Shown piece after piece: positions 6,244 to 47,980 of a stretch of 64,000 nt of DNA. Made by a program: the position numbers and the translations under genes. The stretch's first letter is position 1, and each line of letters begins with the position of its first letter. The stretch is from Terriglobales bacterium. GTDB lineage: Bacteria > Acidobacteriota > Terriglobia > Terriglobales > Acidobacteriaceae. The notes under the pieces were generated by a model. It searched no databases. It had not been told where the DNA came from and was given only the letters and a program-made list of their open reading frames with translations. The DNA lies in the NCBI GenBank assembly GCA_025934735.1, contig JAICWP010000002.1:248001-312000 (forward strand), given 5' to 3'.

Positions 6244-7338
6244 TCAGCGCCAATCGCCCAGCTTCAGGCTGATGATTTCCACGTCCTTGGAACGGTCAAA
6301 AAGGCTGTCCGGGAATAGGCGCTTCATGAGCACGCGGAACCCCCCAAACAGGAGCCCTGCAACTAGCGCGAAGCCCATCAGAATGGCAACCAGCAGGATG
6401 ACGCCGACTAACAGGTTGCCGAGGTTGTCGCGTTTGCTGAAGAACGTATTCTGGTTCCAGGTAATATCAGCATCGTAATTCACCTGGTCGAGCAGCGACT
6501 TGGCATCGCTGTTGGAAACCTGTCCGGAGACCAGCGCCACCAGCGGACCGCTGCGCTTGACCCGGCGGGCCGGATTTTCCGCTTGCGATGTGGTGTGCAG
6601 GGCCGCGTCCATCGCCTTGGCGCGCTCGGCCGCGATCTGCGGCGTGGGGTAGGAAATCACCATCAGCGTGGCGTCCGCTTGGGAACCCGCTGAGGTTGCA
6701 TATTGCGCCATTGCCACTTCCGCGCCCTTGCCGAAATCCACCATCTCAGCCGAAACGGGAGTGGAGACGTCCCCTAAGCCCACCGGGCCCATGAAGTAGC
6801 GGACCGTATTGGCTCGTCGCGCCTGCTTAGGCAGGTAGCCCAGCACGGGCGGCAGGTTGCGGGCGCTTCCTGCGGGCAGCGGCAGGGAGGCGGCCAGATC
6901 GCGCAATTCCGCCGCTGACATTGCCGTCACCCGGTCCAGCACAGCATCTACCACGATGTTGCCGCGCACAAACAGAACCCGCCCGTTAGAGGAGGCGCCT
7001 TGATCGCCTATGTTTTCCGCCGCCATCTCCGGTCGTTTGTAGAAGCTGAAGGCGCCAAATGCTCCGCTGGCATCGGCAAAGCGCGCCGCCTTCACTTTCA
7101 TCACGCGATCGGACCGCGTATAGGTGGCCTGCTCCATTTCGCGAAATCCATACTCTTTGAGCAGCGGAGCAAAGGCGGCATCGGCCTGGGTGGCATCCTG
7201 GCTCATCGCCGGTGTCCCTGACAGGCTCCATCCAGCAAATTCGCTCGGCAAAAATGATTGGCTGCTGCTTGTGGGCGCTGCCACTGCTGCGGCCAGGCTC
7301 ACCAGGCAGAATACGAAAAGGATGGCTATTTTCCTCAT
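6244..7338 (-). CDS. exported protein with a C-terminal membrane anchor (DUF6599-like)
   Basis: A 364-residue protein of unknown function. A signal peptide (KIAILFVFCLVSLAAAVAA) is followed by FLPSEFAGWSLSGTPA. A long mixed alpha/beta region follows, then near the C-terminus one transmembrane segment (LLVGVILLVAILMGFALVAG) and a short cytoplasmic tail. This layout resembles an Acidobacteria-enriched family that I recall as DUF6599; the family name is from memory and unconfirmed. The start at 7338 is the ATG at the head of the signal peptide. It lies downstream of the amidase and lytic transglycosylase genes on the same strand (80-bp gap), which suggests an envelope role but does not prove one. 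Confidence 0.75.
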   Translation of the reverse strand: MRKIAILFVFCLVSLAAAVAAPTSSSQSFLPSEFAGWSLSGTPAMSQDATQADAAFAPLLKEYGFREMEQATYTRSDRVMKVKAARFADASGAFGAFSFYKRPEMAAENIGDQGASSNGRVLFVRGNIVVDAVLDRVTAMSAAELRDLAASLPLPAGSARNLPPVLGYLPKQARRANTVRYFMGPVGLGDVSTPVSAEMVDFGKGAEVAMAQYATSAGSQADATLMVISYPTPQIAAERAKAMDAALHTTSQAENPARRVKRSGPLVALVSGQVSNSDAKSLLDQVNYDADITWNQNTFFSKRDNLGNLLVGVILLVAILMGFALVAGLLFGGFRVLMKRLFPDSLFDRSKDVEIISLKLGDWR

Positions 7339-7418: not shown

Positions 7419-9443
7419 CTATTGGCCATTGCCTTGGGGGCCGCTGCTGGCCACTTTGATCCCGCTCAGGCCGCTGGCATAGCGGGCGATGCCCCGGTAC
7501 AAGGATTGCGCAATTCGCTGCCGGTAGGCCGGGCTGCGCAGCTTGTGTTCGTCCTGCGGATTGCTCACGAAGGAGATCTCCGCCAGGATGGAAGGCATTT
7601 GGGCGCCAATCAGCACCACGAACGGAGCTTTCTTCACTCCCCGATCGCGAATGGCCGCACTGCGCCCCGCCAGCCCCGCGTACAGCGAATGTTGCACGTC
7701 AGCGGCGAACTCCCGTGACTCCTCCACCTTCTCCTGCAGGGCTATGGTCTTCACCAGTTGCTGCAGCTGATGAATCGATTGGTCGGAAACGGCGTTCTCG
7801 CGTGCCGCTACCTCAAGAGCATCGCTGGAGGTAGTGAAATTCAGGTAGTAAGTTTCCACCCCGCGCGCATCGGGATCGTGGCTGGAATTGGCGTGCACGG
7901 AGACAAATAGGTCGGCTTGCGCCTGGTTGGCAATGGCGGTGCGCTCTTCCAGGGGTACAAAAGTGTCGTCCTGGCGCGTGTAAACCACATCCGCTCCCAG
8001 GCGCTGCTCCAGCAGTTTGCCCAGGCGCAGGGCCACATCGAGCACCAGATCCTTTTCTTCCAGGCCGTGCGGGCCGATGGTGCCGGTGTCGTGCCCTCCG
8101 TGCCCGGGATCAATCACGATTTTCCCGATTTTCAGTCCCAGCGCGCGGATTAGGGAGCGGTCGCCGCTCGCTGTAGGCCTCGCTTCGCGCGTCTCTACCT
8201 CATCGCCACCCTCCCTGATCACTACCCGGGATGGGCGCTTCACTGAGCGCGGCAGGACTGCCGCTTGCTGATCATCGGCCGTTGCATCTGGAGTGGCATC
8301 GTCGGTGATGATTTTCAGTGCTGGTCGAGCACTCTTTGCGATGGCGGCCGAAGCTGGGGTTTGGCGGATTTCAGCAACCTGATCTGCTCCCGCTCCCGAT
8401 TTCGCCTTCTTCAGCGCGGGAGCTGCTTTGCCCTCGCTCGCACCAATGCTTCTGCCGTCCTCTGCTGTCGCGCGGCTTGCCCGGTCACTCTTGGCAGAGC
8501 CCGGTTGCGCTGCGGCGGAGGTTGCTTCAGGGCCGTGGATATCAATGATCAGCCGGTCAGGATTGGGCAGCAAGAATGCGGAATATTGCGCCCGCCTCTC
8601 CACCTGCAGCACGATGCGCGCATCGCCGGGCTTGTATTCCGCCACTCGGATTTCCTTCAATACACCGGCTTTCACCTGGAAAATCTTATCCGCCAGGCCC
8701 GGCGCCAGGCGGGTCCAGTGCAGATCAAACACAATGCGCTCAGGGTGCGCCAGGCGCTCGGAGTGGAAGGTCGTGTCCGTGTCCAGGTCAATCGCTACCC
8801 GGGCGGAATCCGGCGCCGACCAGTAACGTACGCGCCTCACCCGGGGCAGACTCTTATCGCTATCCTGGGCCGGTGCTTTTGCCTGTGCTGCCGCTACTGG
8901 AGCGGGCTTCTGCGCAACTTTCAAATCGGCAAGCGCCTGCCGTGCCTCCTCGGCGTGGTGATTCCGCGGATAATGTTTCAAGAACTCCTGGTAAGCCGCT
9001 TTGGCCTGCGCCGGGTCGCGCAGGTCGTCCTTGTAGATATGGGCGATGGTGAGCAGGGCATCGCTGCGGGAATGGCTGCCGGGATATTCCCGGCGGAGAA
9101 AGTTATATTGCCCGATGGCGGCGCCCAGCATTTTGGCGTCATCGAACTGGCGCCCCATATCCGCCAGCAGTTCCGCCACCGCCACTACGCTCGCTGGCGC
9201 TTTGCTGGAGCCTGGATCCAGGTAGTAGACGCGCCGATAAGCGTCAATCACGTGCTGGTAGTCGTGCCGCTTGCGTTGCTCAGCGCTGCGCCCGTTCAGA
9301 CTGCCACGCAGCTTTTCTGCCCGGGCAAACTGCGCCAGCGCTGCCTGCGTCTTGCCCGAAGCGGCGGCTGCCGGCACTGCCAAACTGGCAATCAGCAGCG
9401 CCGCGGCACACAACCACGTCCCACCTGGGATTATCTGTTTCAA
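7419..9443 (-). CDS. N-acetylmuramoyl-L-alanine amidase (AmiC-type, AMIN + Amidase_3)
   Basis: A periplasmic zinc amidase that cleaves the bond between N-acetylmuramic acid and L-Ala of peptidoglycan. Order of parts: a signal peptide ending near VPAAAA, a TPR-like helical region (about residues 35-165), an AMIN domain (from VRRVRYWSAPDSARVAIDLD to about residue 305), a Lys/Ala/Pro-rich linker, and the catalytic domain from about residue 440. Zinc ligands are in IDPGHGGHD, GLEEKDLVL and FVSVHANSS, and the catalytic Glu is in ILAEISFVSN. At 674 residues it is larger than E. coli AmiC because of the TPR part and linker. The start is TTG at 9443. The lytic transglycosylase gene is 41 bp upstream, consistent with a cell-separation unit. 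Confidence 0.93.
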   Translation of the reverse strand: MKQIIPGGTWLCAAALLIASLAVPAAAASGKTQAALAQFARAEKLRGSLNGRSAEQRKRHDYQHVIDAYRRVYYLDPGSSKAPASVVAVAELLADMGRQFDDAKMLGAAIGQYNFLRREYPGSHSRSDALLTIAHIYKDDLRDPAQAKAAYQEFLKHYPRNHHAEEARQALADLKVAQKPAPVAAAQAKAPAQDSDKSLPRVRRVRYWSAPDSARVAIDLDTDTTFHSERLAHPERIVFDLHWTRLAPGLADKIFQVKAGVLKEIRVAEYKPGDARIVLQVERRAQYSAFLLPNPDRLIIDIHGPEATSAAAQPGSAKSDRASRATAEDGRSIGASEGKAAPALKKAKSGAGADQVAEIRQTPASAAIAKSARPALKIITDDATPDATADDQQAAVLPRSVKRPSRVVIREGGDEVETREARPTASGDRSLIRALGLKIGKIVIDPGHGGHDTGTIGPHGLEEKDLVLDVALRLGKLLEQRLGADVVYTRQDDTFVPLEERTAIANQAQADLFVSVHANSSHDPDARGVETYYLNFTTSSDALEVAARENAVSDQSIHQLQQLVKTIALQEKVEESREFAADVQHSLYAGLAGRSAAIRDRGVKKAPFVVLIGAQMPSILAEISFVSNPQDEHKLRSPAYRQRIAQSLYRGIARYASGLSGIKVASSGPQGNGQ

Positions 9444-9484
9444 TGTGTTAGCCCGTTCCCGCTACCGCCGCACCGAACTGCGCC

Positions 9485-10330
9485 CTAATCGGTGTTGGTC
9501 ATGGTGATCACGCCCTGCGCGTCGCGATATACGCGCACCGGATCCCGGTTGGGCATGACAAACATCCCTGGCGCCGACTTGCCGCTCCAGTACAAGTTGG
9601 TGATCTTCTTCACGTAGTTGCGTGTTTCGGCATAGGGCGGCACCCCTGAACTGCGCATCACCGCTCCCACTCCGGCGTTGTAAGCCGCCAGCGTCAGTCG
9701 CACATCGCCCCCGAAGTTGTTCAGCAGATCCTTCAGGTGGCGCACCCCCGCATCCACGTTTTGCGCCGGATCGAAGGGGTTGGTGACCTTGAGTTCGCGG
9801 GCCGTGTTCGGCATCAACTGCATCAGCCCCATGGCCCCGGTGCGCGATACCGCGTGCGGGTTGAAGTTGGACTCCACCTTTATGACGGCGCGCACCAGGT
9901 TCGGATCCACGTTGTGACGCGCGGCCGCCCGCTCAATCTCGGCGTCAATGTCCGCCGAAGAAGCCATACTATCGGCAGAGTTCGTTGCCGGAGCCGCACG
10001 CATCATGCTGCGCACTTCCGCCGCCGCGGAACGGGCTGCCCGCATGGAGGAGTGGCTGGCCGGCGGAACCGGCTTCCAGCGGTGCTCGGTGCTGCTCCAG
10101 TACATTAGCCGGGCGCCCGCGGGCTGCGCTCGCGGTGTCGCACGCCGTACTTTCGGCGCGGCATCGTTCACGTAAACCGTGCGCCCATTTTGCTGTACCA
10201 CGACGATCTCACCGGGTGCCGTGGCGGAGTCGGGACCGGTGCCGGCCTGCAGCGATGGCGTGGTGAAAAGAAAGGAGGTCGCGATTGCGGGAATGGCCAT
10301 CAGGACGAGTTGCAGACGCATGCGCATCAT
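9485..10330 (-). CDS. lytic transglycosylase (SLT domain)
   Basis: An exported murein lytic transglycosylase, which cleaves glycan strands to 1,6-anhydromuramic acid ends. The N-terminal signal peptide ([17 protein letters not shown]) is followed by a short DUF4124-like beta hairpin ([20 protein letters not shown]) and a Ser/Ala-rich linker. The SLT domain has the catalytic Glu in [12 protein letters not shown], then [29 protein letters not shown] and [12 protein letters not shown]. The start at 10330 is the first ATG of a Met-Met pair; a GTG nine codons upstream is possible. It is the first gene of a same-strand group with the amidase and the anchored membrane protein. Confidence 0.92.
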
Positions 10331-10665
10331 CGGGTAAGGCTTTCGGCGAAGAAACACACCTTCGCTTACCTACCCTCAGCCTGACAGAGATTCACCAGAG
10401 TGCAACGATTATAGGTCCGTCCGGAGCGGCAAACAATCTGCCTAAAGGGCTACTGAACCACCGAAGTAATACCGCTAAGTGACTGTGGTGCAGCGGGTTA
10501 ACTGATTCGCCATTGTGTGCCTTGGCATTAGCAATCGGCATTCGCCCAACCGCAGTTAGCACAATGGGCACTTACCGGTTAGTGCCCGGCGGTTCTTGCC
10601 CGCTCCCGGCGATTCCTCGCAGTGGCTGAGTGCTAAAACTCAATTACAATTCCCTTCAGTTCCCC
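10331..10665. other. 335-bp divergent intergenic region, no gene seen
   Basis: This gap separates the lytic transglycosylase gene (minus) from the Rieske gene (plus) and must hold both promoters. I see no convincing -35/-10 pair, no strong hairpin with a T-tract and no open frame with family similarity. Confidence 0.5.
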
Positions 10666-11781
10666 ATGAACTCCTTCGCTAGTCCTACTCGGCAAACGCC
10701 CGACGCGGAAATGCTCTTCGGTTTCTGGTACCGCGCCCTGGCCAGCGAGCGCGTGCGCCATAACCGGCTGCAAAAGGCCATGTTGCTGGAAGTCCCGCTG
10801 GTGATTGGCCGCGACGCCCAGGGCCGCGCCTTCGCCCTTCGCGACGCCTGCCCTCACCGGGGCATGCCTCTCTCCTGCGGGGTGTTTGATGGCCATCAAC
10901 TGGAGTGCAGCTATCACGGCTGGAAGTTCGACGCCCACTCCGGACAATGCCAGCTCATTCCCTCATTGACCGCCGATCAGAAGCTGCGGGTGGACCGCAT
11001 TTACGCCGGCGCCCTGGCTTGCGCCGAACACGACGACTACATCTGGGTGTTCGTGCCTGAACCAGGGCCCGCGGGCGCAGGCGCCACCAAACCGGAGGAC
11101 CCCCCCCTGCCCGCGCCCCGCGTGCCCACGTTTTCCCGCGCCTACAAACTGGCCTACCTTACCGCCGACATGCCGGTGACCGTGGACCATGGCATTATCG
11201 GGCTGATGGATCCGGCGCACGGGCCATTTGTGCACCAGGCCTGGTGGTGGCGCTCCCGCCACAGCATTCATGAGAAGCAGAAGGCCTTTGAGCCCATTCC
11301 CGATGGCTTCCGCATGAGCGCGCACACGCCCTCATCCAACAGCGCGCCTTACAAGCTGCTGCGCCTCTACGCCGATGCCGAGTCCATCACCACAACCATT
11401 GATTTCGTGCTGCCCAACCTGCGTTCGGAAACCATCCGGGCGGGGAAGTATTGGTTCTCCAGCCTGACCACGGTCACGCCCATCACCCGCAACCGCTGCC
11501 GCATTGATGTGGTGGCGGCGTGGAACATTTTTCGTTGGCTGCCCTTCGGTCCCGGGCTGCTCAAGTTTGTGTTTGCCAAATTTGTGGAGCAGGACCGTCG
11601 CACCATGGAGTTGCAGGCTGAGGGCCTGAAGCACGATCCCCATCTGATGCTGATTGACGACGCCGACCGCCCCGCCAAGTGGTATTTCCAACTCAAGCAG
11701 GCCTACATGGATGCCCGCCGCAACGGGGCTGAGATGCGCCACCCTATGTCCGGGCCGGTTACGTTGAAATGGCGCAGCTGA
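10666..11781 (+). CDS. Rieske non-haem iron oxygenase, orphan
   Basis: A 371-residue terminal oxygenase of the vanillate-demethylase / pheophorbide-oxygenase type. The Rieske [2Fe-2S] ligands are in CPHRGMPL and CSYHGW, near residues 57 and 76. The mononuclear iron site is MDPAHGPFVH, with the family pattern D-x2-H-x4-H. In this family electrons come from a separate reductase, and none is encoded next to it. The substrate is unknown; relatives act on aromatic acids, chlorophyll catabolites and sterols. The ATG at 10666 is used, with an in-frame GTG twelve codons earlier as the alternative. The preceding 330 bases contain no gene, so it is probably monocistronic. Confidence 0.88.
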   Translation: MNSFASPTRQTPDAEMLFGFWYRALASERVRHNRLQKAMLLEVPLVIGRDAQGRAFALRDACPHRGMPLSCGVFDGHQLECSYHGWKFDAHSGQCQLIPSLTADQKLRVDRIYAGALACAEHDDYIWVFVPEPGPAGAGATKPEDPPLPAPRVPTFSRAYKLAYLTADMPVTVDHGIIGLMDPAHGPFVHQAWWWRSRHSIHEKQKAFEPIPDGFRMSAHTPSSNSAPYKLLRLYADAESITTTIDFVLPNLRSETIRAGKYWFSSLTTVTPITRNRCRIDVVAAWNIFRWLPFGPGLLKFVFAKFVEQDRRTMELQAEGLKHDPHLMLIDDADRPAKWYFQLKQAYMDARRNGAEMRHPMSGPVTLKWRS

Positions 11782-11788
11782 AGGGCGC

Positions 11789-12190
11789 TTACGCCGGCGA
11801 GGCTAGTTCCTGCGTCTCTTCCAGTTCTTCTCCGACCAGATAGTTCAGCGCCTGCTCCCGGCTTTGGAAGATGGGAAACTCACGAACCGTGAAGGCCTTT
11901 ACATTATCGTAAAAGGCCTTGGGGAAGTTTGTGGCTCCGATCCAGGCCGAGCGCTTGACATGGGGACGGTCATAGACCATGGCTATCTTCAGGTGTTCCA
12001 GCGCGTTGCGGTCTATTTGCGCGTTGGTGAAGTCACCCAGCAGCAGTACCGAGTGCTCCGGTTCAGCGGTTACGTAGCTGGGAACCAGGTCGCAGATGAT
12101 GCCTACCTGTGTGGCCGTGCAGCCGCTCAGGTCAACCAGCAGAATGCGCTGCCCCTGGTGAGTGATAAAGCGGACCCGATCGCCATTCAT
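11789..12190 (-). CDS. hypothetical protein, possibly SpoIIAA/STAS-like fold
   Basis: A 133-residue soluble protein with alternating strands and helices: RVRFITHQGQRILLVDLSG, VGIICDLVPSYV, HSVLLLGDFTNAQI, KIAMVYDRPHVKRSAWIG, AFTVREFPIFQSREQALNYL. The order and the closing FQSREQALNYLV helix resemble SpoIIAA-like domains, but this is a fold-level guess. An acidic tail (GEELEETQELASPA) ends the protein. It converges with the Rieske gene, with only seven bases between the stops. A real gene is likely because codon use and the open frame are consistent. The function is unknown. Confidence 0.7.
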   Translation of the reverse strand: MNGDRVRFITHQGQRILLVDLSGCTATQVGIICDLVPSYVTAEPEHSVLLLGDFTNAQIDRNALEHLKIAMVYDRPHVKRSAWIGATNFPKAFYDNVKAFTVREFPIFQSREQALNYLVGEELEETQELASPA

Positions 12191-39414: not shown

Positions 39415-42400
39415 TCAAAATACCAGGCGTAAGGCGAATTGCACCTGGCGTGGTGCATAGGCGTTGGTCGCTCGCAAAAAATCACCGGTTACGCGGTATT
39501 GTGCCGGGAAGTAGTTGACCCCCAAACGCTTATCCAGTTGCACGAAGCGCCCGGCGGAGTTGAGGAAGCCATCGTCGTTCACGTTTACCCTTCCGTTGAA
39601 GCGGTTCATGAGGTTGAAAGCTTCGCCCAAAGCCACCAACCGCAGGCGCTCGGTCAGGTGAATCTCACGCGAGAGCCGCACGTTGGTGGTGGTGTAATCC
39701 GGGCCCACAAAGGCATTGCGCCCATAGCCTGGCAGGCGATCGTTGCTGCTATTCAGGTCCTGGTTGGGATCCCCAAAGATGCGCGCCTCCACCGGACGTC
39801 CGCTGCCCGCAGTCACGCTTCCCGAGAACCTCCAGTCGTTGAACAACCGCCCCAGGAATTCCTGGCCGGCGTGAAACGGCCGCGGCTCGACAATCCAGGA
39901 AGCCACAAAACGATGGCGCTGGTCGGTGACGCTGGAGGCGCGCTCGGCGCTGGGCGAGTAGGTGTTCTGCACCGTAACCGGACGTCCCACCACCAGCGCA
40001 TCCTGCCCATCGTCAATGGCATGGGCGTAAGTGTAAGCCACCCGGAAGTAGAGCCCGTGGGTCATGCGCCGGCGCAGGGAAAAAGTTATCCCGTGATAGG
40101 TGCTGGTGGCGGCGCTTTCAAATACATTGATGGCGCCCAGTTGCGGAATGGGCCGCTGCAGGGGATTGATGCAAGGCGCCCAGGGGCAGGTCAGCGAATC
40201 CGTCAGCTGCCAGGTGGAGAACGAATCCACGCTGTAGTAGCCCAGCAGGTTGTTGCCGGAGTCGTCGAACACCGGATAACGGACGGTGGAGGGTACAGGC
40301 AGGTTGAGGTCGCGTGCGCGAATCAGCCCATCGCCATTCACAAACAGGTAGGAAGCGCCCACGGCCATGCGATCTGCTATCTCGCGCTCCATGCTGAAAC
40401 TGGCCTGGTGCACGCGGGGGGTCTGGAACTGCGGCGAAAACGCTGAAATTTCCGTTGCCAGCCGTCCTGCAACGCTGGCGGGAGCAGCGCATGACGTCGC
40501 GGTCAGGCCGCAGTCCGTCAGAGGATTGGGATAAGCCGGGAACAATTGCCGATCGTAATAATCCGTGTTGTCCAGGAATAGGTGCGTGCTGGCCAGGCCG
40601 TTATCCGTCGCGATCGCAGACGTGTACATCTGTGGAATGCGGGTATAGAACAGGCCATAACCGCCGCGGATCACAAACGGACGCTGGTTACCCAGCGAAT
40701 AGGCAAAGCCAACCCGCGGGCCAAAGTTGTTGGTATCGAGCGGCACCTTGCCCGAGTCCGGCCACAAGGGATTCGTGACTAACCCCTTTTGGGTGAAGGT
40801 TTGCAGGTCGTAGCGCACGCCCAGGTTGAGGGCGAGGTGATCGGTGACGCGGATCGTGTCCTGGATGAAGGCGGCATACTCATGGGTATCCGGGTGTGAG
40901 AAGCCTGTGCCGAAGTTCTGCATGTAGTAGCGGGGCACGCCATGCGCCCAGGCACGCAGCGGCGTCAACTCGGTGCCGCCCACCATGGGCTCGAAGGTCC
41001 AGGGATTCACGCGGAGGTTGTCGAAAATGTATTCGCCGCCGAACAGTGAAGGGAAGTAGTTGTAGATCCAGGTTAGCATCGCGTCGCCGCCGAACTTCCA
41101 GGAGTGCCGGCGGCCGTCGAAGCTCAGCGTTTCCGCCACCTGGAACTTATGCTCGCGGGTGCGCCGGGGCAGGATGGTGGAACGCCCGAACCCATTCATC
41201 AGGTCATAAATCTGAGTCAAGGGCGCGGAGGAGTTGCTGAAGGACTGCTGCAAATCGCGCGAAAACTGCAGGCGCAGGTGGCTGACAATCTGCTGGGAAA
41301 GGGAACTGGTCAGCGACACGGTGCCGCTTTCCGTGGAAACCCGCTCTTCGCCGTTGTCGCTGATGGCGTAGCTGGTGACCGGGCTGGCCGGATCGAAGAA
41401 CACATTGTTGCTGCCGTAATAGCGCGAGGTGTTCAGGCGCGCGCTCAGGAAATGCCGCGGGCTGAGCGAAAAATCCACTTTGGCGAAAGCGGTATTGCCC
41501 AGCAGCTTGGAGCGGTACTCGCCCCCCATTTGCGAAAGCCGGTTGGCCGCCGCAAACACCAGCGGCTTGTCGCTGGCCTCATAATCCGGCGGGATGACCG
41601 GGTAATTCCCGGCTTGCGGCACCACCCTGTAGCCACCGGTGGCGAACTGCACCACCGTGGGTACATGGAAGATATGCTGGTCGAAGCCGCCATAGAAGAA
41701 AGCGCGGCTGCGCCGCAGCGGTCCGCCCAGGGTGAAGCCATACTGCTGCTGGCGGTCAGAAGGCTTAAAGCCGGTGAATGCGGGCTGGGCGTTGAAGCGG
41801 CTGTCGCGCAGGTAGTAAAAGGCGCTGCCGTGCAGGTGGTTGGAGCCGGATTTAGTGACCACGTTTACAACCGCCCCTCCAGCGCGTCCCAGTTCCGCAC
41901 CATAGGAATTGGTGGAGACGCGGAATTCCTGCACCACCTCATTGCTGAACTGATAGGGCGCGCGATAGCGGCCGCGGGCCTGGGAAAAGAAGGCATTGTT
42001 GTTGTCGGCGCCGTCCACCAGGTAGCTGGTCTGGGTGCCGCGAATGCCGCCGTAGGCCAGGTCACCGTTGCTGGCCGAGGTCAGGCCGCGCGGGTCCTGG
42101 GTCACGCCGCCATCGAGCAACGCCAGATCCCCGAAACGCCGCCCGTTCAGCGGCAAATCGGAGATGGCGTCCTGGTCAATCACGCTGGAAACAGTGCTGC
42201 TCTGGGTTTCCACCAGCGAAGGCGGTTCGGTGACCGTGATGGCTTCGTTGACGGTTGCCATGTTGAGGCGAAACTCCAGCTGCAGCACCCCGCCCACCGG
42301 CACGGGCTGTGCCGGACGCAGTTCCGAGCGCATGCCGGGAGCGTCAGCCCGCACGCCGTAATCGCCGGGCGGCAGCAGGTCGAAGACAAAGGCGCCTTCG

Positions 42401-42609
42401 CTGTTGGTCTCCGTGGTGTAGGTGAGTTCCGTGGCGCTGTTCACCGCCCACACGCGCGCGCCCACAATGCGGGAGCCGCTGGGATCGGAAACCGTGCCGC
42501 GGATGGCGCCGGTAGAGGCGTCCTGGGCGGCGGCAGAGGCAATCAGCAATAGTGGAACAGCAAGCAGGAACCAGGGCAGACGTCGGCTACAGCTCGGGGG
42601 AAGGGACAC
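39415..42609 (-). CDS. Oar-like TonB-dependent outer-membrane receptor with N-terminal CarboxypepD_reg-like domain
   Basis: A 1064-residue outer-membrane protein. Signal peptide LPWFLLAVPLLLIASAAAQ, then an Ig-like regulatory domain (GAIRGTVSDPSGSRIVGARV to GDYGVRADAPGM), then the plug (LVETQSSTVSSVIDQDAISD, LPLNGRRFGDLALLDGG, SYLVDGADNNNAFF, FRVSTNSYGAELGRAGGAVV) and a beta barrel ending with PRQVQFALRLVF, with C-terminal Phe. No TonB-box is obvious. Oar-like proteins in Acidobacteria are thought to import sugars or oligomers, but no SusD partner is adjacent. GTG at 42609 has GGAGG seven bases upstream. Its stop overlaps a dyad CCTGG..CCAGG (39400-39427). Confidence 0.93.
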   Translation of the reverse strand: MSLPPSCSRRLPWFLLAVPLLLIASAAAQDASTGAIRGTVSDPSGSRIVGARVWAVNSATELTYTTETNSEGAFVFDLLPPGDYGVRADAPGMRSELRPAQPVPVGGVLQLEFRLNMATVNEAITVTEPPSLVETQSSTVSSVIDQDAISDLPLNGRRFGDLALLDGGVTQDPRGLTSASNGDLAYGGIRGTQTSYLVDGADNNNAFFSQARGRYRAPYQFSNEVVQEFRVSTNSYGAELGRAGGAVVNVVTKSGSNHLHGSAFYYLRDSRFNAQPAFTGFKPSDRQQQYGFTLGGPLRRSRAFFYGGFDQHIFHVPTVVQFATGGYRVVPQAGNYPVIPPDYEASDKPLVFAAANRLSQMGGEYRSKLLGNTAFAKVDFSLSPRHFLSARLNTSRYYGSNNVFFDPASPVTSYAISDNGEERVSTESGTVSLTSSLSQQIVSHLRLQFSRDLQQSFSNSSAPLTQIYDLMNGFGRSTILPRRTREHKFQVAETLSFDGRRHSWKFGGDAMLTWIYNYFPSLFGGEYIFDNLRVNPWTFEPMVGGTELTPLRAWAHGVPRYYMQNFGTGFSHPDTHEYAAFIQDTIRVTDHLALNLGVRYDLQTFTQKGLVTNPLWPDSGKVPLDTNNFGPRVGFAYSLGNQRPFVIRGGYGLFYTRIPQMYTSAIATDNGLASTHLFLDNTDYYDRQLFPAYPNPLTDCGLTATSCAAPASVAGRLATEISAFSPQFQTPRVHQASFSMEREIADRMAVGASYLFVNGDGLIRARDLNLPVPSTVRYPVFDDSGNNLLGYYSVDSFSTWQLTDSLTCPWAPCINPLQRPIPQLGAINVFESAATSTYHGITFSLRRRMTHGLYFRVAYTYAHAIDDGQDALVVGRPVTVQNTYSPSAERASSVTDQRHRFVASWIVEPRPFHAGQEFLGRLFNDWRFSGSVTAGSGRPVEARIFGDPNQDLNSSNDRLPGYGRNAFVGPDYTTTNVRLSREIHLTERLRLVALGEAFNLMNRFNGRVNVNDDGFLNSAGRFVQLDKRLGVNYFPAQYRVTGDFLRATNAYAPRQVQFALRLVF

Positions 42610-42824
42610 AACAGCACCTCCGGGGTGAGATGAGGGGAGTCCCAATTTCCGTATACACCCGGAGCAGCTGGCGGAAGCAGAAATCGTCCTGGGGTGAAGG
42701 GTTTCCGTTCCCAGAATGGGACAGAAGGAGGGCGCTCGGAGGTAACTTTCGCGTGGTTGCGGCGTAAGGCATGATTGGGAACCGCACCCGTGCACAGGGT
42801 GTCTATCGTTAGCCAGGAGTTGCT

Positions 42825-44137: not shown

Positions 44138-44258
44138 CACTTCGTTCACACAATAGAGAACTTTTGGTTCCTGGGCCGCGTAATGGTAGTTGCAGTCAGG
44201 AATTTCCCCGGTTTCTGGACTGCCAGCTGGCGCCAGGAGCTTTTCTCGGGAGTGCGGG

Positions 44259-44861
44259 TTGGAAGATGTCCAAGTCGTAGGCTTACTTCTCCGTCGCTGC
44301 CTGACCGGCGACGCCGCAGCCTGGGAGGACATTGTCCGTCGTTACCAGCGGCGTATCTATAACATTTGCTATCGTTTCGCAGGATCGGCCGACGATGCCG
44401 ACGACCTCACCCAGGAAGTGTTCATCAAGATGTACAAAACCCTGAACAGCTACGACGTGGAGCGGGGCGCCTTCCTCACCTGGGTGACCACCATCACGCG
44501 TAACCTGCTGGTAGACCACTTCCGTAAGGGCAAGCACGACCGCCTGACCGATTCCCTGGACGCCACCCCGGCCCAGGAGGAGGAAGGCCGCTCCCTGGGC
44601 GCGCAAATCGAGGACAAGAGCACGGCCAGCCCAGCCGAGCAGGTACGCAGCCGCGAGGCGGGGGAGGCGGTTCACGAAGCCCTGCAGAAACTTTCCCCGG
44701 AACTGCGGGAGGCGGTTATCCTGCGGGACCTGCAAGACATGGATTACAAAGAGATAGCGGGAGTTCTGAAGGTACCCGAAGGTACCGTCAAGTCGCGAAT
44801 CAACCGCGGGCGTGCGGAACTTGCACGCCTGCTATCACGTACCTATAGGCAGGTGATTTGA
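44259..44861 (+). CDS. RNA polymerase ECF-type sigma factor
   Basis: A 200-residue sigma-70 family ECF protein. Region 2 contains YQRRIYNICYRFAGSADDAD, DLTQEVFIKMYKTLNSYDVE and GAFLTWVTTITRNLLVDHFR. After a polar linker, region 4 reads LQKLSPELREAVILRDLQDM, DYKEIAGVLKVPEGTVKSRI, NRGRAELARLL. The TTG start at 44259 is preceded by GGGAG at six bases; the frame is open for 23 codons upstream. Its stop overlaps the ATG of the anti-sigma gene by one base (TGATG), so the two are coupled. It is the head of a four-gene operon. Confidence 0.93.
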   Translation: MEDVQVVGLLLRRCLTGDAAAWEDIVRRYQRRIYNICYRFAGSADDADDLTQEVFIKMYKTLNSYDVERGAFLTWVTTITRNLLVDHFRKGKHDRLTDSLDATPAQEEEGRSLGAQIEDKSTASPAEQVRSREAGEAVHEALQKLSPELREAVILRDLQDMDYKEIAGVLKVPEGTVKSRINRGRAELARLLSRTYRQVI

Positions 44862-45601
44862 TGCCAGGCGAAAACCCAATCCGCATGCAGTGCGCCGAGT
44901 TCGAAGCTCTGCTGGCGGAAGCGCTGGACGGGCAGCTCGGCGGGGCTCAGCTGGAGAGTTTCCAGCAGCACCGCGGCGCATGCCCGGTCTGCGGTCCCCT
45001 GTTCGCCCAGGCCGAAACTGGCCTGAGCTGGTTGAAAGCGGTCCCGCAAGTGGAGCCGCCGGTGAACCTGGTGAACAGAATCCTGGCGGCGACCACGGGC
45101 GTGCAGGCGCGCGTCCCGGTGGCCGTCCCGGTTACCCCTCCGTGGCCGAAGCGGCTGCGGGGCTGGGTAACTCCGGTGCTGGCGCCGGTGTGGAGCACGG
45201 CCCGCCAGCCACGCTTTGCCATGTCGTTCGCGATGGCGTTCTTCTCCGTGTCTATCGCGCTCAATGCGGCAGGCGTGCGGTTGGGCGCCCTGCGGGCTGC
45301 GGACCTGCGTCCCAGCACGCTGGTGCGCGGCTACTACGAGACCTCCGCCAAGGTGGTCAAGTACTACGAAAACATTCGCTTCGTGTACGAACTGGAATCG
45401 CGGGTACGCGACCTGAAGCGGGTAACGGAGCCGGAAGAACCTGCCCGGCCGGTAAAGGAGAAGAATCGCGATAACAATACCAGCGGTGCACCAGACCATA
45501 ACCGGGAACAGAATTACAGCCGGCAGGAGGACCAGCCCGTGCTGGCCTCAGCCCCGGCGGTGCAGTTATGGCCGGTACACGCACTGAGGAGGTTGGTATG
45601 A
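44861..45601 (+). CDS. putative anti-sigma factor (zinc-finger, one membrane segment)
   Basis: A 246-residue protein. The N-terminal anti-sigma domain ends with HRGACPVCGPLF, the H-x3-C-x2-C motif of ZAS-type anti-sigma factors. A Pro-rich linker leads to one transmembrane helix (FAMSFAMAFFSVSIALNAAG) at about residues 120-140. A juxtamembrane helix (GYYETSAKVVKYYENIRF) and a disordered Lys/Glu/Asn-rich tail follow. The position behind the sigma gene with one-base overlap supports the role. It probably holds the sigma factor at the membrane until a signal arrives. Its stop overlaps the next start by four bases (ATGA). Confidence 0.88.
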   Translation: MPGENPIRMQCAEFEALLAEALDGQLGGAQLESFQQHRGACPVCGPLFAQAETGLSWLKAVPQVEPPVNLVNRILAATTGVQARVPVAVPVTPPWPKRLRGWVTPVLAPVWSTARQPRFAMSFAMAFFSVSIALNAAGVRLGALRAADLRPSTLVRGYYETSAKVVKYYENIRFVYELESRVRDLKRVTEPEEPARPVKEKNRDNNTSGAPDHNREQNYSRQEDQPVLASAPAVQLWPVHALRRLV

Positions 45602-46569
45602 ACTGCGCGGTGCATCAAGAAACGCCGGCAGTCGCCTACTGCCGTACCTGTGGAACGGCGCTGTGCGCGGCCTGCAAGCGCGACGTGCGCGGGGTGATTT
45701 ACTGCGAAAACTGCCTGGCCCAGCGGCTGCAGGACGTGATGCCGCCGGCGGGAGCCCCAGCGCCTAGCGCGATGCCGGGCGCGACTCCCGTGATGGTAGT
45801 GCCGAGCAGCGGCCCCAACCCGGCCTTGGCGGCGGTGCTGGCCGCCTTCTTCCCCTTCGGCGTGGGCGCGGTCTACTGCGCGCAGTATGCCAAGGGCCTG
45901 GCTCACATGCTCATCTTTGCGTTACTGGTATGGGGCGCAAGCAGCGGAGGAGATGCGCAATCAACTTTGTTTGGTTTTGGCATCGCTTTCTTTTATTTTT
46001 ATCAGATCGTGGATTCTTATCGTTCCGCGAAGGCCCTGCAACTGGGCCAGCCGGCTCCCGATCCGTTCGGGCTGGGCGAGGTGCTGGGGAGCGGCAGCAG
46101 CGTGAAAATTGCGAATGTTCCCACGGGCGCCCTGATACTCATCGCATTGGGTGTGCTCTTCCTGCTCGGAAACCTGGGGTTGTTCAGGTTCCACGTTTTC
46201 AGCGCAATCGTGATTCCTCTCCTGCTGATCGGACTAGGAGTGTGGATGTTTGTCCGACGTTTTGGCATGGCGGGCACACCGCCTACCGGCTGCGTTTGTG
46301 CTGCCTGCCGCGCCCGGGGATTGATGGGGCCGGCGATCCTGGTGACCGTGGGCGCATTGTGGCTGGTTTCCGAGTTGAGCGGTCCGGGGTTCGGGCGCAC
46401 CTGGCCGGTGCTCCTGCTGGTGATAGGCCTTATCAAGGTGCTGCAGAGCAATGCGCCCACAAGCGGGCATATGCAACCGCCCATTCCGCCGGTGGGGGGT
46501 GGTGGCCAGACGCCGCCAGCCGAGCCACCGGTGGGCGGAGAAGTAGGCGGGGAGGTGGGCCATGTCTAG
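45598..46569 (+). CDS. B-box-type zinc finger membrane protein with TM5-like domains
   Basis: A 323-residue protein. The first 45 residues form a B-box-like zinc finger: MNCAVHQETPAVAYCRTCGT, CAACKRDVRGVIYCENC. A Pro/Ala-rich linker is followed by a TM2-like pair of hydrophobic segments (ALAAVLAAFFPFGVGAVYCA, LAHMLIFALLVWGASSGG), then two pairs of TM5/LiaF-like helices (GALILIALGVLFLLGNLGLF, FSAIVIPLLLIGLGVWMFV and GPAILVTVGALWLVSELSG, TWPVLLLVIGLIKVLQS). A polyPro/Gly-rich tail ends it. GAGGAGG lies before the ATG. It overlaps the anti-sigma gene by four bases and the next gene by eight, so all four are one translation unit. Role: unknown, probably envelope sensing. Confidence 0.8.
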   Translation: MNCAVHQETPAVAYCRTCGTALCAACKRDVRGVIYCENCLAQRLQDVMPPAGAPAPSAMPGATPVMVVPSSGPNPALAAVLAAFFPFGVGAVYCAQYAKGLAHMLIFALLVWGASSGGDAQSTLFGFGIAFFYFYQIVDSYRSAKALQLGQPAPDPFGLGEVLGSGSSVKIANVPTGALILIALGVLFLLGNLGLFRFHVFSAIVIPLLLIGLGVWMFVRRFGMAGTPPTGCVCAACRARGLMGPAILVTVGALWLVSELSGPGFGRTWPVLLLVIGLIKVLQSNAPTSGHMQPPIPPVGGGGQTPPAEPPVGGEVGGEVGHV

Positions 46570-47980
46570 TACCGCGCCCGTGGTTGTGCCGCCGCGACGC
46601 CGGCGCTCCTTTGCCGGGCCGCTGGTCCTGATCATTCTAGGCATCGTGTTCCTGTTAGGGAACATGCATGTGCTGACCTGGCACGCGCTTTGGATGTGGT
46701 TCGCGCGCTACTGGCCGGTGCTGATCATCGTCTGGGGCGTGGTCAAGCTGGTGGAGTACTACCAGGCGCAACGCGAAGGCACGCGGCCCTCGGGCATCGG
46801 GGTGGGCGGATTCTTTCTGCTCCTGTTCTTGGTCTGCGCCGGGTTGGCTGCCAGCCAGGCGGCGCGGGTGAACTGGCACGCGCTGGGCGACGAGGTGGAC
46901 ATGGGCGACAACATCTGGCCCATGTTTGGCGATACCTTCAGCTTCAATGACCAGCTGCAGCAGGCTTTTCCCGCGGGCTCCAGCTTGCGCGTGGTGTCCA
47001 ACCGCGGGGGCGTCACCGTGAGTTCATGGGACGAACCCGATATCAAAGTGGTAGTCCACAAACGGCTGGTGGCCGATAACGAGCAGCAATCCAAGCAGAT
47101 TGACTCGCAAACCCGGCCCAACATCGCGGGGGCCGGCACCCTGGTCACGGTAAATGCCAACACCACCGGGGGTGGAGACCAGCACGCCGTGAACACCGAC
47201 CTGGAGATTTTTGTTCCGCGCAAGACGCCGGTGGACATCGCCACCCAACATGGCGACGTCAGCGTGCAGGGGCGCGACGGCGAGGTGAAGGTTTCCAATT
47301 CCCACGGGGATGTGGGACTGGGCGAAATCACCGGCAATGCCAGCGTAGTCCTGCGTAAGGGTTCGCTGACCGCGGCCCACATCAAGGGCGACCTGAGCGT
47401 GGATGGGCGCTTGGACGACACCAACATTTCCGATGTGAGCGGCAGCCTGTTGATGACCGGAGACTATTTCGGGGACATGACCTTAGCCAATATCAAGAAG
47501 AGCGTGCGCTTCAAATCTTCGCGGACCGACCTGGAATTTTCCCGCCTGGATGGCGACCTGAGCATGGAATCGGGCGACCTGCAAGCCAAATCGCTGGTGG
47601 GACCGCTGCGGCTGATCACCAAGTCCAAGGACATTCACCTGGACAACGTGAGCGGCGACATCAAACTGGAAGACAGCAACGGCAGCGTGGAAGTACATGC
47701 CGGCAAGCTTCCGCTGGGCAGCATGCAGATTGACAACCGCAAGGGCGATGTCCAGGTAGTTGTGCCCGCCGGCGCCGCTTTCAACGTGAATGCGCATACC
47801 CGCGACGGCGACATCCAAACTGACTTTAACCAGATCCAGGTGAGCAGCGACCATGGCCAGAGCACGGCCAATGGCGCGGTGGGCAGCGGCGGCTCCCGGT
47901 TGGAAATCAACAATCAGTATGGTTCCATCGAGATCCGCAAGGCGGGAACGGCGGAAGCCAGCAATCAGGGGCAGGACTGA
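46562..47980 (+). CDS. membrane protein with LiaF/TM5-like helices and DUF4097-type beta-helix
   Basis: A 472-residue protein. The basic start PPRRRRSFAGPLVLIILGIV is followed by two helix pairs (LWMWFARYWPVLIIVWGVVK, GVGGFFLLLFLVCAGLAAS), and from about residue 135 a long repeat domain with regular beta turns: LRVVSNRGGVTVSSWDEPDI, VDIATQHGDVSVQGRDGEVK, LTAAHIKGDLSVDGRL, LEFSRLDGDLSMESGDLQAK, LDNVSGDIKLEDSNGSVEVH. These DUF4097-like repeats form a beta-solenoid, likely outside the membrane. It overlaps the previous gene by eight bases. LiaF and PspC relatives sense envelope damage, which fits the upstream sigma pair. Confidence 0.85.
   Translation: MSSTAPVVVPPRRRRSFAGPLVLIILGIVFLLGNMHVLTWHALWMWFARYWPVLIIVWGVVKLVEYYQAQREGTRPSGIGVGGFFLLLFLVCAGLAASQAARVNWHALGDEVDMGDNIWPMFGDTFSFNDQLQQAFPAGSSLRVVSNRGGVTVSSWDEPDIKVVVHKRLVADNEQQSKQIDSQTRPNIAGAGTLVTVNANTTGGGDQHAVNTDLEIFVPRKTPVDIATQHGDVSVQGRDGEVKVSNSHGDVGLGEITGNASVVLRKGSLTAAHIKGDLSVDGRLDDTNISDVSGSLLMTGDYFGDMTLANIKKSVRFKSSRTDLEFSRLDGDLSMESGDLQAKSLVGPLRLITKSKDIHLDNVSGDIKLEDSNGSVEVHAGKLPLGSMQIDNRKGDVQVVVPAGAAFNVNAHTRDGDIQTDFNQIQVSSDHGQSTANGAVGSGGSRLEINNQYGSIEIRKAGTAEASNQGQD

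Follow-up and report, generated by a model that had tools for sequence, protein, structure and literature searches.

In the window analysed here, a stretch of 64,000 nucleotides from the genome of a Terriglobales bacterium (Acidobacteriota; contig JAICWP010000002.1), four forward open reading frames (ORFs) encode an extracytoplasmic function (ECF) sigma factor, an anti-sigma factor and two membrane proteins, referred to as gene 3 and gene 4, and two copies of one promoter-like motif, P1 and P2, accompany them (Table 1; all coordinates are positions within the window). The original prediction, made from the letters of this locus, had described neighbouring ORFs of this operon as overlapping by 1, 4 and 8 bases (sigma/anti-sigma, anti-sigma/gene 3 and gene 3/gene 4, respectively), which was confirmed from the ORF coordinates.

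Table 1. Genes and predicted promoters of the four-gene ECF sigma factor operon
Feature	Position	Strand	Evidence
P1, predicted autoregulatory ECF promoter, GAACTT (-35) N15 CGTA (-10)	44158..44182	+	Motif conserved before orthologous sigma genes
ECF sigma factor gene, TTG start, 200 aa	44259..44861	+	Pfam Sigma70_r2 1.4e-23, r4_2 2.2e-18
P2, predicted intragenic promoter within the sigma gene (3′ end), immediately before the anti-sigma start	44817..44841	+	Motif conservation and codon constraint
ZAS-type anti-sigma factor gene, one transmembrane helix, zinc-binding, 246 aa	44861..45601	+	C11/H37/C41/C44 ligands, RsiW profile match
Gene 3: B-box zinc finger, membrane region and LiaI-LiaF-TM pair, 323 aa	45598..46569	+	PF00643, PF18917 and PF22570 over cut-off
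Gene 4: three-helix LiaF-like anchor and toastrack (DUF4097) beta-helix, predicted periplasmic, 472 aa	46562..47980	+	PF13349 5.3e-15, PF18917, AlphaFold, Foldseek 4qrk, charge pattern

Within the family, a match to the anti-sigma factor was found in 143 of 150 genomes, and in 107 of the 110 near-complete ones. Named genomes were scanned with the anti-sigma protein and the best 80 of 85 loci, all from Acidobacteriota taxa, were compared; all four genes were present in 71, the other nine being cut by contig ends, and none of the 80 had truly lost genes 3 and 4 while keeping the sigma pair intact (in L116, counted among the loci without true loss, gene 4 starts inside a fused gene 3 frame, and the sigma reading frame of L072 and L077 is interrupted, giving two pieces). 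With start codons picked by script, the overlaps recurred among relatives, namely that of 1 base in 70/73 sigma/anti-sigma pairs, that of 4 bases in 72/77 anti-sigma/gene 3 pairs and that of 8 bases in 42/74 gene 3/gene 4 pairs. Outside the family, where the 15 best-scoring loci, spread over eight further families of the phylum, were compared, the sigma gene preceded the anti-sigma gene in all 15, and a gene 3 match followed the latter in 13 (seven families), the remaining two loci ending there; a further ORF fitted gene 4 best in seven, while that of an eighth, L387, fitted gene 3 better. The phylum-wide tally of 80/149 genomes was not used as a measure of presence, most of the outside matches covering the zinc domain only. 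The four-gene order recurs in named loci and in other families, so it is not peculiar to this contig, and the four genes behave as the one conserved unit that had been predicted.

The first gene product is a sigma factor of ECF type, having regions 2 and 4 only (PF04542 and PF08281) and scoring 119.5 bits against TIGR02937 (cut-off 42.9), and its best solved-structure match is Bacillus SigW (5wuq_A, 1.1e-29). At the top of the NCBIfam list stood the SigW model with 135.6 bits, under its cut-off of 209, nearly equalled by the SigE model PRK09647 with 133.9; because the equivalog cut-off is not reached and SigE is barely behind, the protein is not called SigW here. No placement of this sigma factor in an ECF group was found in the literature. 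As an observation on the coding sequence, an early near-invariant Glu codon, probably codon 2 (probably window 44262-44264), is GAA in all relatives counted (1.0).

The anti-sigma factor matched zf-HC2 at the borderline (19.0 bits in the protein scan, 22.5 in the genome scan, cut-off 22.2). Its four zinc ligands are invariant in 45 aligned sequences and include the H-x3-C-x2-C motif in the N-terminal anti-sigma domain by which ZAS proteins are recognised; in profile comparison, RsiW (5wuq_C, 1.3e-4) was the sole solved chain below 0.01. The AlphaFold model (mean predicted local distance difference test, pLDDT, 63) is confident only at about residues 11-80, the zinc domain, which is followed by one likely membrane helix and then a long low-confidence helix, and it gave no significant Foldseek match (RslA, E 5). 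The profiles, the invariant ligands and the RsiW match thus bear out the identity of the pair as an ECF sigma factor and a ZAS-type anti-sigma factor.

Gene 3 carries a B-box whose eight Cys/His ligands are each kept at at least 95% in 76 orthologues. Two of the four genes had been predicted to contain LiaF-like helix pairs, and this held in part: both genes 3 and 4 have LiaI-LiaF-type Pfam matches, while gene 4 shows three predicted helices rather than one pair and gene 3 has an extra hydrophobic stretch before its LiaF pair. Although PF18917 was matched over its cut-off by both, LiaF-like_C reached 14.7 bits against a cut-off of 29 in gene 4, and neither is assigned to LiaF proper. In several loci (L041, L045, L064, L068, L093, L103, L111, L113, L114 and others) the gene 3 match is divided between two overlapping ORFs, one for its first and one for its second half, so its B-box/membrane part and its LiaF-TM part may be separate modules.

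The AlphaFold model of gene 4 (mean pLDDT 87.8) has three helices of membrane length and, after them, a long beta-helix, in agreement with the long beta-solenoid originally proposed, and the DUF4097 ‘Toastrack’ family PF13349 was matched with 55.9 bits (cut-off 22.9). In Foldseek, 4qrk ranked first (E 2.8e-8), ahead of 3lyc and others; 4opw reached 7.6e-3. The template modelling scores (TM-scores) were low, 0.18/0.35 for 4qrk and 0.18-0.39 across 4qrk and 4opw, so the assignment to the toastrack family is based on the Foldseek E-values and Pfam. Mean charges over 42 sequences were 3.3 K/R at the N-terminus, 0.8 in the first loop, 2.1 in the second loop, and 1.7 K/R versus 5.3 D/E past the third helix; because of this pattern, the N-terminus is predicted to lie inside the cell and the toastrack in the periplasm. 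In the predicted regulon described below, toastrack proteins begin with signal peptides readable by eye (e.g. L426, L431, L443, L146 and L234). Ravi et al. 2024 (PMC11237479) proposed an intracellular toastrack, which the predicted placement contradicts; it is in line with PMC9239133, where the domain of LiaG is set outside the cell.

Upstream of the sigma gene, the P1 motif, generalised as GAAC-N16/17-CGTA, was found in 69 of 78 non-identical sigma upstream regions including that of the window, nearly all with 17 bases, versus a mean of 0.45 in shuffled sequences; identical duplicates, loci with too little upstream DNA and L008, a copy of the window, had been left out. It resembles the sigma-W consensus, which has a GAAC-type -35 and a CGTA -10. 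Only two copies occur in the whole window, P1 and P2, and the latter is an exact copy, with exactly the P1 spacing, in the last codons of the sigma gene, where it was found in 62 of 73 relatives.

Could this second copy merely reflect the protein encoded there? The residues at P2, E-L-A-R-L-L-x-R, are themselves conserved, as a coding constraint would have it. The codons are held more tightly than that: after leaving out 4 of the 73 sigma genes, which lack the residue pattern, GAA was used in 69/69, CGT in 69/69 and CTT in 59/69, versus 33, 9 and 8 expected from each gene’s own codon use, and all three together occurred in 59/69 versus 0.57 expected. Since the usage is far above expectation, these codons appear fixed beyond the need of the protein. 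With the spacing identical to that of P1, the position directly before the anti-sigma start, and a precedent in the SigH-dependent rshA promoter of Corynebacterium glutamicum, in the part of the source available (PMC3489674), we regard a pure coding constraint as very unlikely. P2 is therefore predicted, from its conservation and codon use, to be an intragenic promoter that would add anti-sigma factor, gene 3 and gene 4 upon sigma activity.

Genome-wide, the exact motif occurs 14 times in the own genome versus 4 times for the backwards pattern. Two of the 14 are the operon’s own; behind nine others lie four MacB/FtsX-type permeases, a MacA-like adaptor, an M1 peptidase, a STAS protein, a PMT-type glycosyltransferase and a DUF4386 membrane protein, and three have no convincing gene behind them. 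The spacing control GAACTT-N17-CGTA gave 6 matches and its backwards pattern 10. In ten relatives, 126 motif sites were counted versus 72 backwards, and 36 versus 112 backwards for the N19 spacing control, so raw motif counts, set against such backwards counts, were rejected as sufficient evidence. Looking at the genes behind the sites, 13 families were met downstream of the motif in at least two genomes each (14 recurrent non-operon components minus one out-of-frame MacB shadow), including PspC, signal-peptide toastracks, MacA, MacB, STAS, M1 peptidase and DUF6249; 8 operon motif loci were omitted from this count, and a further 10 of the 126 sites, likewise in the operon, were not retrieved. 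As a side observation, the four MacB/FtsX-type permeases of the own genome (contigs C2, C8, C20 and C38; L125, L128, L131 and L134) begin 19-50 bases past an exact motif, hinting that the sigma factor drives several permeases.

In gene-centred tests, GAAC-N16/17-CGTA was sought within about 250 bases upstream of orthologues in the best-scoring 30 of the 139-149 genomes with a match. The motif stood upstream of zinc-ribbon PspC genes in 29 of 30 loci (22 with 17 bases and 7 with 16, the own genome having 16), of MacA genes in 27 of 30, and of signal-peptide toastrack genes in all 30; of the three MacA misses, one had only 18 bases upstream and two had a misplaced start. Among the genomes not used for motif discovery the numbers were 21/22, 21/24 and 27/27 for PspC, MacA and toastrack, respectively. 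Shuffled upstream sequences yielded 0.2 (PspC) and 0.1 (MacA) matches per 30, and upstream identity was otherwise at background (gap-free median 0.29 for PspC and 0.28 for MacA). A common motif before PspC, periplasmic toastrack and MacA genes upholds the predicted role in envelope stress.

The motif was absent from all seven other zf-HC2-linked ECF loci of the own genome, searched from 300 bases before to 260 after the open-frame start. The three near-complete genomes without the anti-sigma factor (G011, G084 and G102, from two genera) also have no match to the zinc-ribbon PspC, and G011 and G084 are without gene 4 and toastrack as well. PspA was tried as a target and rejected: no N16/17 motif was found in any of 30 upstream regions among relatives, of which 20 lie at clear PspA starts (0/20) and the other ten, at the wrong ORF, are uninformative. 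PspA has no match in the own genome, and 87 of 150 family genomes have one; being in neither the operon nor the predicted regulon, it gives no ground for classing the locus as a phage shock protein (PSP) system.

Three further loci are noted in their own right. In G111, a PspC gene (contig C393, 4248-4562) precedes the anti-sigma gene (6327-7055) by about 2 kb, which is a physical link of regulon and operon. Within the window itself, a minus-strand ORF of 1126 residues (39415-42795) looks by eye like a carboxypeptidase-regulatory-like/TonB-receptor-like protein. On contig C48 of the own genome, L363 (about 8639-11825; also L006) holds an ECF sigma factor and a zf-HC2 anti-sigma factor, and behind them lies a DUF4097-like sequence matching gene 4 (phmmer 3e-7). 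The locus may be a second sigma-toastrack unit; GAAC-N16/17-CGTA is absent upstream of its sigma gene.

By computation, the operon is conserved, both promoter motifs are present, and the motif precedes PspC, toastrack and MacA genes. On this motif evidence we consider it probable that this operon is the locus controlling an autoregulated envelope-stress response of ECF type, one that works like sigma-W/RsiW of Bacillus, with the operon’s own sigma factor as the likely reader of GAAC-N16/17-CGTA. At rest, the membrane anti-sigma factor would hold the sigma factor through its cytoplasmic zinc domain. Envelope damage would free it, presumably relayed by the extra-membrane part of the anti-sigma factor and the co-made LiaF/toastrack proteins, and the freed sigma factor would transcribe its own operon from P1 as well as a distributed regulon of zinc-ribbon PspC, signal-peptide toastracks and MacA/MacB-type exporters, probably joined by the STAS protein, the M1 peptidase and the PMT-like glycosyltransferase. 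Firing of P2 would then supply a second dose of anti-sigma factor plus genes 3 and 4, closing the loop by negative feedback.

Several points weigh against this circuit. Outside the family, the exact motif stands before the sigma gene only in four loci of one family (f20) of the 15, with a CGTC variant in one more; the gene-centred tests cover the best-scoring genomes, the more distant ones lying outside them; and the raw counts in the ten relatives are weak. The 30 wrong-spacing control loci shared no family, which is only suggestive, as 10% of equal-size motif samples share none too. The sigma factor also stays below the NCBIfam cut-off for a SigW orthologue. Moreover, ECF factors often share the GAAC -35 type, so GAAC/CGTA is generic and another ECF factor could share the sites; the operon might then be a real ECF locus whose distributed sites belong to a different sigma factor with a like motif. 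The specificity is indeed read from sequence, and two near-complete genomes, G040 and G077, have the anti-sigma factor with no match to the zinc-ribbon PspC. Yet the motif occurs twice in the operon and nowhere else in the window, none of the seven other zf-HC2-linked ECF loci of the own genome carries it, no other sigma operon appears among the recurrent downstream families, and the three near-complete genomes that have no anti-sigma factor also have no match to the zinc-ribbon PspC, which together make this alternative improbable.

What genes 3 and 4 do within the circuit is more evenly contested. They might be envelope-protecting effectors, like LiaI/LiaH or the partners of PspC or YvlB, co-expressed from P1 and P2 while the anti-sigma factor alone senses stress, for which the odds fall somewhat short of even. 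In the near-complete G102, which speaks against the circuit as a whole too, genes 3 and 4 are kept with neither a sigma nor an anti-sigma gene adjoining, and no anti-sigma match was found genome-wide (the sigma gene was not sought elsewhere in this genome); other toastracks and PspC, likely effectors, belong to the same predicted regulon. But the tight overlap with the anti-sigma gene, the co-driving of both genes with it by P2 and the linkage to the sigma pair in other families all exceed what an effector needs. We therefore give an even chance to genes 3 and 4 being a sensing or feedback arm rather than pure effectors, and the solenoid of gene 4 as the sensor, as originally proposed, did not gain from the comparison, G102 fitting an effector role as well. 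A bolder version, in which Acidobacteriota carry an ancient sigma-W-type circuit with a PspC/periplasmic toastrack/MacA-MacB regulon core common to Firmicutes, and in which the gene 4 toastrack reads the envelope state and gates the anti-sigma factor together with the B-box/LiaF protein, is speculative, and we think it rather unlikely.

Among known systems, rpoE-rseABC of Escherichia coli has the same layout of a sigma factor, a membrane anti-sigma factor and then envelope accessory genes in one operon, with unrelated accessory proteins. LiaFSR/LiaIHG and VraT differ in being built on a two-component system, where the acidobacterial operon has an ECF sigma pair, and LiaI-LiaF-TM is described, in the text available, with a region of four transmembrane helices, whereas gene 4 has three predicted helices and its toastrack outside the cytoplasm. 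The sigH-rshA system of C. glutamicum shares with the proposed P2 a sigma-dependent promoter for the anti-sigma gene alone, and differs in answering oxidative and heat stress and in expressing sigH from housekeeping promoters, according to the portion of PMC3489674 available. Ravi et al. 2024 (PMC11237479) mention toastrack neighbourhoods in which B-box, LiaI-LiaF-TM or PspC variants occur, and also an ‘operonically linked sigma factor’; ‘Acidobacteri’ and ‘anti-sigma’ are absent from the main text of that paper as retrieved, and no promoter or regulon was seen in it. PMC9239133, as far as its main text was available, reconstructs a Psp network of Acidobacteria centred on PspA and band-7 proteins, and ‘ECF’ and ‘sigma factor’ are absent from it.

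The literature matches listed contained no description of an ECF-driven envelope-stress circuit in Acidobacteriota, and no paper combining Acidobacteria, sigma factor, phage shock protein and envelope stress was found. The original statement that no named system has this composition holds in so far as the exact acidobacterial arrangement was not found described; it is qualified by the linked sigma factor in the retrieved text of Ravi et al. and by the close functional parallel of Bacillus sigma-W in the sources seen. New here are the sigma-W-like motif before the sigma gene, its P2 copy before the anti-sigma gene, and its further copies ahead of PspC, toastrack and MacA genes. Acidobacteriota are widespread in soils, and the control locus, its two promoters and the few target genes proposed here can now be tested; on the open point of whether toastracks lie inside or outside the cell, the topology and the signal peptides favour the outside.

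The nearest functional analogue is SigW/RsiW of Bacillus, the best solved-structure match for both the sigma factor and its ZAS-type anti-sigma factor with one transmembrane helix. There the sigma factor is released by PrsW and RasP proteolysis, and the YknXYZ proteins are MacAB-like. The core sigma-W operons, in the source text available, include yknWXYZ as well as yvlABCD, whose products comprise one DUF4097 and one PspC protein. As predicted from the motif, the acidobacterial system would likewise combine an autoregulated operon with a regulon of PspC, DUF4097 and MacAB-like genes. They differ in that the acidobacterial sigma operon itself holds two LiaF-type membrane genes, and in that pspA belongs to the sigma-W regulon in the same text, whereas the acidobacterial genome is without a PspA match and the PspA genes of its relatives are without the motif. 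If true, a regulon core common to Bacillus and Acidobacteriota would point to PspC, toastrack and MacAB-type exporters as an old repair set driven by ECF factors.

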